A DNA stretch of 40,551 nt, from assembly GCA_018061865.1 (NCBI GenBank), contig JAGOTH010000006.1:1-40551 (forward strand). The letters are read 5' to 3'. This stretch comes from Minisyncoccota bacterium. Its GTDB lineage: Bacteria; Patescibacteriota; Minisyncoccia; Phycocordibacterales; UBA9973. Below the pieces are notes generated by a model. That model ran no database searches. It worked only from the letters and a program-made list of their open reading frames with translations, and was not told where the DNA came from. Both the position numbers and the translations under genes were made by a program. This document shows, piece by piece, positions 1,297-2,397 of the stretch; position 1 is the first letter of the stretch, and the number at the start of each line of letters is the position of its first letter.

Positions 1297-1944
1297 ATGA
1301 CTAAAACTATACTAATCTATGGAGACTCATATACTCACGGAAAAGTTCCGGGGGCGCCAAAGCGATATTCTCGTGAAGAGAACTTTGTTGGAGTTTTAGA
1401 GAAAGAACTTGGGGATGGTTTTCGGATAATTGATGAAGGTCTCCGAGCTAGAACTCTGTCGGGAGAGAATATTTTTTTCCCAGAAAGAGATGGATTGGCT
1501 CAGTTCGGACCAATACTAGGAAGCCATCTTCCCCTTGATTTAATCTGTATTTTTCTTGGGACAAATGACTGCAATAAAACAGGAACTAAATCCGATGAAG
1601 AAATTTATCAGACTCTTTTAGAATACAAAAACAAAATTGAAGAGTGGTGTAAAAATTTAATAATAGAAAAAATTCCAAAAGTTATGATAATCGCTCCACC
1701 AATAATCAGAGGCGATCAAGTTATTCTAGACAAAGTGATAAGTGGAATATTTGACGTAGATTCTGAAGAAAAATCAAAAAGGCTAGCTCCGATTTATGAA
1801 AAATTCTGTATAGAAAACGATTGTGAGTTTTTTAACTCAGCAAAATACGCAAAAACTTCAGACGGAGAGGGGATTCACCTTGATTTGGAAAACAATACTT
1901 CTCTTGGGAAAGCGTTAGCTGAAAAAATTAAAAGTATTGACTAG
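1297..1944 (+). CDS. SGNH/GDSL-family esterase (arylesterase-like)
   Basis: A 215-residue GDSL hydrolase that probably cleaves acyl or aryl esters. The GDS block is at residues 9-11 with nucleophile Ser11 (YGDSYTHG). The block II glycine lies in DEGLRARTLSG (residues 46-56). Block III is FLGTND with Asn90. The C-terminal DGEGIHL carries His194 and an acidic partner (Asp189 or Glu191). The DEGLxxRT and SHLPLDLxxxxLGTND patterns are typical of the bacterial arylesterase/acyltransferase branch. There is no signal peptide, so it is probably cytoplasmic. The substrate cannot be read from the sequence. The gene lies in an accessory block without an obvious partner. Confidence 0.85.
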   Translation: MTKTILIYGDSYTHGKVPGAPKRYSREENFVGVLEKELGDGFRIIDEGLRARTLSGENIFFPERDGLAQFGPILGSHLPLDLICIFLGTNDCNKTGTKSDEEIYQTLLEYKNKIEEWCKNLIIEKIPKVMIIAPPIIRGDQVILDKVISGIFDVDSEEKSKRLAPIYEKFCIENDCEFFNSAKYAKTSDGEGIHLDLENNTSLGKALAEKIKSID

Positions 1945-1982
1945 AACATTCAAATGTTGTATTATAAATAAAATTCAAAATA

Positions 1983-2369
1983 ATGATAACAGTCGAGGAA
2001 AAACAAGTTTCTATTGATGTGAAAACATTAAAAAATATAATTGCAGGCAGTAAAAGCTCCCCATTTATTTTTTTGGAAAATATTAAATTTTCCAAAAAAA
2101 GCCAGAAAATCATACTAACTTTTTCCGATAATTTAATGGAAAAAGGCTACGGACCAAAGCAAGTTGAGTTTTTTTCCAAAGAGCTGAAAGACCTTGATTT
2201 AAGTATGGTGGCTTTTAATAAACTAAAAGCTTTTGGAATAAAAAAAGTAAAAGACATTATTACCAACGCTGGGGAAATAAAAGAACTCCCTCTTAGTAAG
2301 TTTGGTAGAAGAAGTAGAGAAGAATTGAAAAATTTATTTAAAGAACACAAGCTTACCATTGATTTATAA
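1983..2369 (+). CDS. Orphan RNA polymerase alpha-CTD-like protein
   Basis: A 128-residue protein. The last 60 residues (about 69-128) match the C-terminal domain of RNA polymerase alpha: LDLSMVAFNKLKAFGI aligns with the helix holding the DNA-contact residues, and SKFGRRSREELKNL aligns with the helix-hairpin-helix NLGKKSLTEI of E. coli alpha. The position equivalent to DNA-binding Arg265 reads Val, while the equivalents of Asn268, Gly296 and Ser299 are kept (Asn79, Gly108, Ser111). The N-terminal 68 residues have no recognised fold and are not the alpha assembly domain. It is a single gene with its own terminator. A role as transcription factor or DNA-binding adaptor is inference only. Confidence 0.7.
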   Translation: MITVEEKQVSIDVKTLKNIIAGSKSSPFIFLENIKFSKKSQKIILTFSDNLMEKGYGPKQVEFFSKELKDLDLSMVAFNKLKAFGIKKVKDIITNAGEIKELPLSKFGRRSREELKNLFKEHKLTIDL

Positions 2370-2370
2370 A

Positions 2371-2397
2371 CCCCGCCATTCGGGGATTTTTTATTTT
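2371..2397 (+). terminator. Intrinsic terminator after the alpha-CTD-like gene
   Basis: CCCCG (2371-2375), loop CCATT, CGGGG (2381-2385), then a T-rich run. The next promoter -35 (TTGACA at 2398) begins where the T-run ends. Confidence 0.9.

Follow-up and report, generated by a model that had tools for sequence, protein, structure and literature searches.

The gene at positions 1983..2369 (+ strand, ATG start) of the window, the whole 40,551-nucleotide stretch of DNA analyzed here and contig C3 of a 614-kb, 18-contig genome, encodes a 128-aa protein that carries the C-terminal domain of the RNA polymerase alpha subunit (alpha-CTD) as a stand-alone module. Judged from its sequence, the protein belongs among the many accessory alpha-CTD proteins of Patescibacteria and phages, a context that the earlier note on this DNA had missed. 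With a little less than even confidence, we consider it to be an accessory and probably phage-derived regulator that would dock at promoters on sigma, on regulators, or on RNA polymerase (RNAP), that would bind the minor groove weakly, and whose N-terminal domain would dimerize or add a target.

The gene was delimited by its open reading frame and its match to PF03118 (RNA_pol_A_CTD). In a Pfam profile search, positions 7 to 65 of the 67 in PF03118 matched residues 60-119 (2160..2339, + strand) with 29.2 bits (E 7.9e-7), exceeding the curated cut-off of 23.8 bits. Only the last 60 to 70 positions of the NCBIfam rpoA models matched the protein (best E 4e-7), and 28 of 30 PDB sequence matches were alpha subunits or alpha-CTD constructs, the top one being 8i23_A (E 5e-4). 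As a yardstick within the same genome, rpoA scored 52 bits against PF03118 and the next match, a 676-aa frame that is presumably the DNA ligase, scored 14.6 bits. No generic helix-hairpin-helix (HhH) family (HHH_5, LigA, ComEA) matched the protein in Pfam at E values up to 10. With PF03118 above its cut-off and no HhH family matching, the profile scores rule out a generic HhH origin of the domain, the placement that the earlier note had set against its own alpha-CTD assignment; that assignment stands, the best structural matches likewise being solved alpha-CTDs. At 128 aa, and with rpoA models matching by their C-terminal ends only, the protein lacks the alpha N-terminal domain (alpha-NTD), which dimerizes and binds beta and beta-prime, as had also been claimed. 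No sigma-70 region 4 was matched in it by Pfam.

AlphaFold2 run on the single sequence gave an unusable model (pLDDT 41.5). With 12 aligned rows as input (the 128-aa protein, the G049 protein, and the alpha-CTDs of IMG/VR contigs), pLDDT was 77, with block means of 78 to 92 in the CTD and 44 to 82 in the N-domain. VIA-align placed residues 55-127 of this model, in which the CTD fold extends to residue 127, on alpha-CTDs, best on 1z3e_B of B. subtilis (Z 10.5, rmsd 1.8 over 66 residues), and among the matches listed, 50 of 50 were RNA polymerase entries. Structure prediction, proposed by the earlier note as a check, therefore agreed with the domain assignment for the C-terminal part, although, because alpha-CTDs were already in the input alignment, this fold match is a consistency check and not independent proof. 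The N-terminal region (residues 1-59; 1983..2159, + strand) was modeled as beta-alpha-beta-beta with low to middling confidence. These ~60 residues matched no curated family, in keeping with the earlier description of a stretch without a known family, and had no detectable relatives; a weak Cas2 match (E 0.007) was taken as chance. The N-domains of the 128-aa protein and of the G049 and G029 proteins look alike by eye, but shuffle tests gave a common domain no support (p 0.31 and 0.54). No orthologue of the full protein was found among 148 relatives, GTDB contigs, IMG/VR, phages, or plasmids, sets that held no other genome of its genus.

The genome's own rpoA (L001), which the earlier note had advised inspecting, is a separate, full-length ORF whose CTD is intact and has Arg265. 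The CTD of the 128-aa protein was 37% identical to that of the G072 protein, which carries sigma-70 region 4, 33% to that of B. subtilis, 27% to that of E. coli, and 19% to that of its own rpoA. Position 299 (E. coli numbering) is Gly in 63 of 64 rpoA CTDs of relatives and Ser or Thr in 24 of 31 accessory CTDs, the 128-aa protein counted; three of the 31 are phage proteins, and four belong to other families of the order. In a tree of 63 columns, which had long branches, the protein grouped with G187 (97/88) and G072 (88/89) among accessory CTDs and outside the rpoA group. The low identity to its own rpoA, the Ser at 299, and the tree position together rule out recent duplication of the host alpha tail as the source of the CTD. 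As far as sequence comparison can tell, the CTD is nearest to accessory and Firmicutes-type CTDs, not to its own rpoA. Two other accessory proteins, L064 and L111, do resemble duplicates of the rpoA tail, unlike the 128-aa protein. Separately, the rpoA CTDs of the window's family (e.g., L001) carry this Gly at the position of Ser299 in E. coli and B. subtilis, and Cys at 269 was seen in 0 of 64; this is, by these counts, a lineage-wide change of the DNA-contact face.

When the protein is aligned with its E. coli and B. subtilis counterparts, Val76 (codon 2208..2210, + strand) falls at the position of E. coli Arg265, just as the earlier note had read it. In E. coli, R265 and N294 of the alpha-CTD enter the minor groove and K298 touches the backbone (PMC7822876); DNA binding depends critically on R265 (PMC11434276). 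In E. coli numbering, the 128-aa protein has D261, V265, N268, K269, G296, R297, R298, S299, and E302, and Asn294 is lost, Lys being read off the alignment at this position. Contact residues N268 (N79), G296 (G108), S299 (S111), and, as a conservative exchange, K298 (R110) are kept, as are D261 and E302. Family, fold, N268, G296, K298 (as R), S299, and E302 are thus common to the protein and RNAP alpha (PF03118; 1z3e_B of B. subtilis, 3n97_B of E. coli), from which it differs by the missing alpha-NTD, by R265 to Val and N294 to Lys, and by being a separate gene besides an intact rpoA. Since the R265 and N294 equivalents are lost and other contact residues retained, the minor-groove contact is probably weakened and the remaining surface kept. 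With the minor-groove Arg gone, UP-element binding by the 128-aa protein is probably weak, and protein contacts are probably more important than DNA contacts. Arg265 was present in all 64 rpoA CTDs of relatives; among the 31 accessory CTDs, it was kept in 22 and missing in 9.

Extra alpha-CTD genes were found by a PF03118 scan in 19 of 147 family genomes, a hand count that leaves out long frames resembling LigA and pieces of rpoA at contig edges and in which G017 and G187 lie below the Pfam cut-off. Across the phylum, 39 of 239 genomes had two or more alpha-CTD loci (PF03118, E<=1e-6; hand count of the table), and not all of these extras are accessory regulators, two being bL21-like ribosomal proteins (L191, L192). 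Architectures varied and comprised small proteins of 84-214 aa, proteins of ~330 and ~450 aa, and a double-CTD protein (G189). Both of the ~330/~450 aa proteins tested contained sigma-70 region 4, namely G072 (L034; PF04545 9.6e-9, PF03118 3.2e-19) and G043 (L033; sigma-70 region 4 2.3e-5, alpha-CTD 8.3e-26), and the IMG/VR phage contigs L176, L177, and L183 encode fusions of sigma-70 region 4 and alpha-CTD as well. Such fusions are possible sigma-like promoter-recognition proteins. Like the 128-aa protein, they bear an accessory alpha-CTD, that of G072 being the nearest (37%), but they have the helix-turn-helix of sigma region 4 that is absent from the 128-aa protein. Sigma region 4 is repeatedly fused to accessory alpha-CTDs in relatives and phages, and the two domains also occur together with DNA in the complex of PDB entry 3n97; a role of accessory alpha-CTDs at promoters is therefore plausible. 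Phage contig L185 encodes a double CTD, and further accessory architectures exist among phage contigs.

Four small proteins, G049 (136 aa), G029 (132 aa), G166 (136 aa), and G204 (106 aa), have an N-part of ~40-70 residues followed by an alpha-CTD, as in the 128-aa protein; however, G049, G166, and G204 keep Arg265 and G029 has Lys where the 128-aa protein has Val, and their N-parts have no significant similarity to its N-part. Among viral proteins, the model was matched best by 128-135 aa proteins of uncultured Caudovirales labeled 'RNA polymerase, alpha subunit, C-terminal' (A0A6J5MNY7, 128 aa; A0A6J5QDR9, 133 aa; A0A6J5L490, 131 aa; A0A6J5M7I6, 135 aa); the alpha-CTD label is already in use for phage proteins of equal length. 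These share with the 128-aa protein an alpha-CTD without alpha-NTD and a similar length. Unlike it, they are phage-encoded, and the likeness rests mostly on the CTD, the structural alignments spanning 71-87 columns, mostly within that domain; sequence searches of IMG/VR and phages returned no full-length relative. A literature search of partial coverage found no studies of stand-alone alpha-CTD proteins.

The accessory-regulator reading draws together a PF03118 score above cut-off, the absence of an alpha-NTD, an intact rpoA elsewhere, a CTD nearest to accessory CTDs, phage proteins of equal length and label, and an AT-rich segment beside a tRNA. The alpha-CTD module would here be unlinked from RNA polymerase and borne by a different N-terminal domain of ~60 residues, and its surfaces could dock on sigma region 4, on an alpha-contacting regulator, or on the promoter DNA backbone. 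The N-domain might supply dimerization or a second target, a guess given the low-to-middling model confidence and the lack of relatives. In bacterial RNA polymerase, the alpha-CTD serves as the docking hub. Accessory alpha-CTDs in phages and in the tiny genomes of Patescibacteria could control transcription with no need for a classical activator, and the 128-aa copy, its minor-groove residues lost, would help to tell protein docking apart from DNA binding.

That the minor-groove Arg is gone while other surfaces remain would also suit a titrating protein, that is, a free alpha-CTD that competes with that of the polymerase for activators or sigma, so that activator-dependent transcription falls, e.g., in phage takeover or in the exclusion of other phages. 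Many such proteins occur in phages, and Arg265 is missing in other accessory CTDs too (9/31), but it is kept in 22/31, which speaks against decoy action as a general role, and we would expect few alpha-dependent activators in a 614-kb genome; on balance, this role appears unlikely. A broader proposal, which we hold to be similarly doubtful, is that free alpha-CTD modules, whether alone, joined to sigma region 4, or joined to cysteine-rich or small beta domains, form a scattered toolkit common to Patescibacteria and phages and act in trans at promoters. In this branch, minor-groove binding would have been lost, and the module would act purely by protein docking, as a decoy or co-regulator of RNA polymerase.

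A promoter-like site (TTGACT-17-TATTAT; 1937..1965, + strand), identified by consensus match only, precedes the gene, and an intrinsic-terminator-like element (2371..2395, + strand), recognized in the sequence as a CCCCG stem at 2371-2385 plus a T tract, follows it. With these sites around it, the gene looks like its own transcription unit, the predicted leader of its transcript being ~10 nt. Between the promoter-like hexamers lies a perfect inverted repeat, AACATTCAAATGTT (AACATT-CA-AATGTT; 1945..1958), present as a single copy in the whole genome; inverted repeats of this kind occur in ~0.8% of 17-nt stretches of the window. The repeat was spotted post hoc, may be due to chance, and only suggests an operator. 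Its position and uniqueness would fit an autonomous DNA-binding regulator, whose N-domain dimer binds DNA and perhaps represses its own promoter at this palindrome. HhH folds often bind DNA, and Arg109, Arg110, Ser111, and Asn79 could still touch it. Both Arg265 and Asn294 are lost, however, which, together with the post hoc nature of the repeat, makes autonomous binding improbable, and alpha-CTDs are not, to our knowledge, readers of palindromes.

The gene lies within an AT-rich stretch (~27-34% G+C, or 27-32% when set against the mostly 34-44% rightward) that adjoins a tRNA-Glu (334-406). Twelve nucleotides in the 3' half of the tRNA gene (ATTCCCCGTGGA, 390-401) are repeated exactly at 601-612, 211 bp downstream, which hints at an integration site, and the AT-rich segment at ~500-2700 may be an integrated island. 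This setting, the absence of an orthologue in 148 relatives or sequence collections, and the loss of key residues would also fit the remnant of a phage gene, or of one acquired horizontally, that is decaying and has no present function, but the frame is intact and has promoter-like and terminator-like sites, fold positions and N268/G296/S299 are retained, and Patescibacteria genomes are small and prone to losing useless genes, all of which renders a remnant quite improbable. In G049, the small alpha-CTD gene is located near rmuC. The rmuC 3' flanks of 40 relatives, several of which end at contig edges, held no small alpha-CTD gene, their sole match being rpoA; conserved placement beside rmuC was thus not borne out, and the proximity in G049 may be chance.

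Other arrangements of the domain were seen alongside these. The phage proteins L186 (1360-1668) and L187 (716-1054), 103-113 aa long, carry zinc-ribbon-like cysteine pairs ahead of an alpha-CTD, and phage contig L179 carries adjacent alpha-CTD frames at 948-1199 (84 aa, nearly the domain alone) and 1186-1728 (181 aa, with a beta-rich N-part). L064 (4279-5805) and L125 (G035:C8) combine one or two rpoA-type CTDs with a helix-turn-helix resembling that of sigma-r4 and a C-terminus rich in cysteine. The bL21-like frames, L191 (2010-2552, - strand) and L192 (1371-1946, + strand), come from two other Patescibacteria and end in a C-terminal alpha-CTD-like HhH domain.
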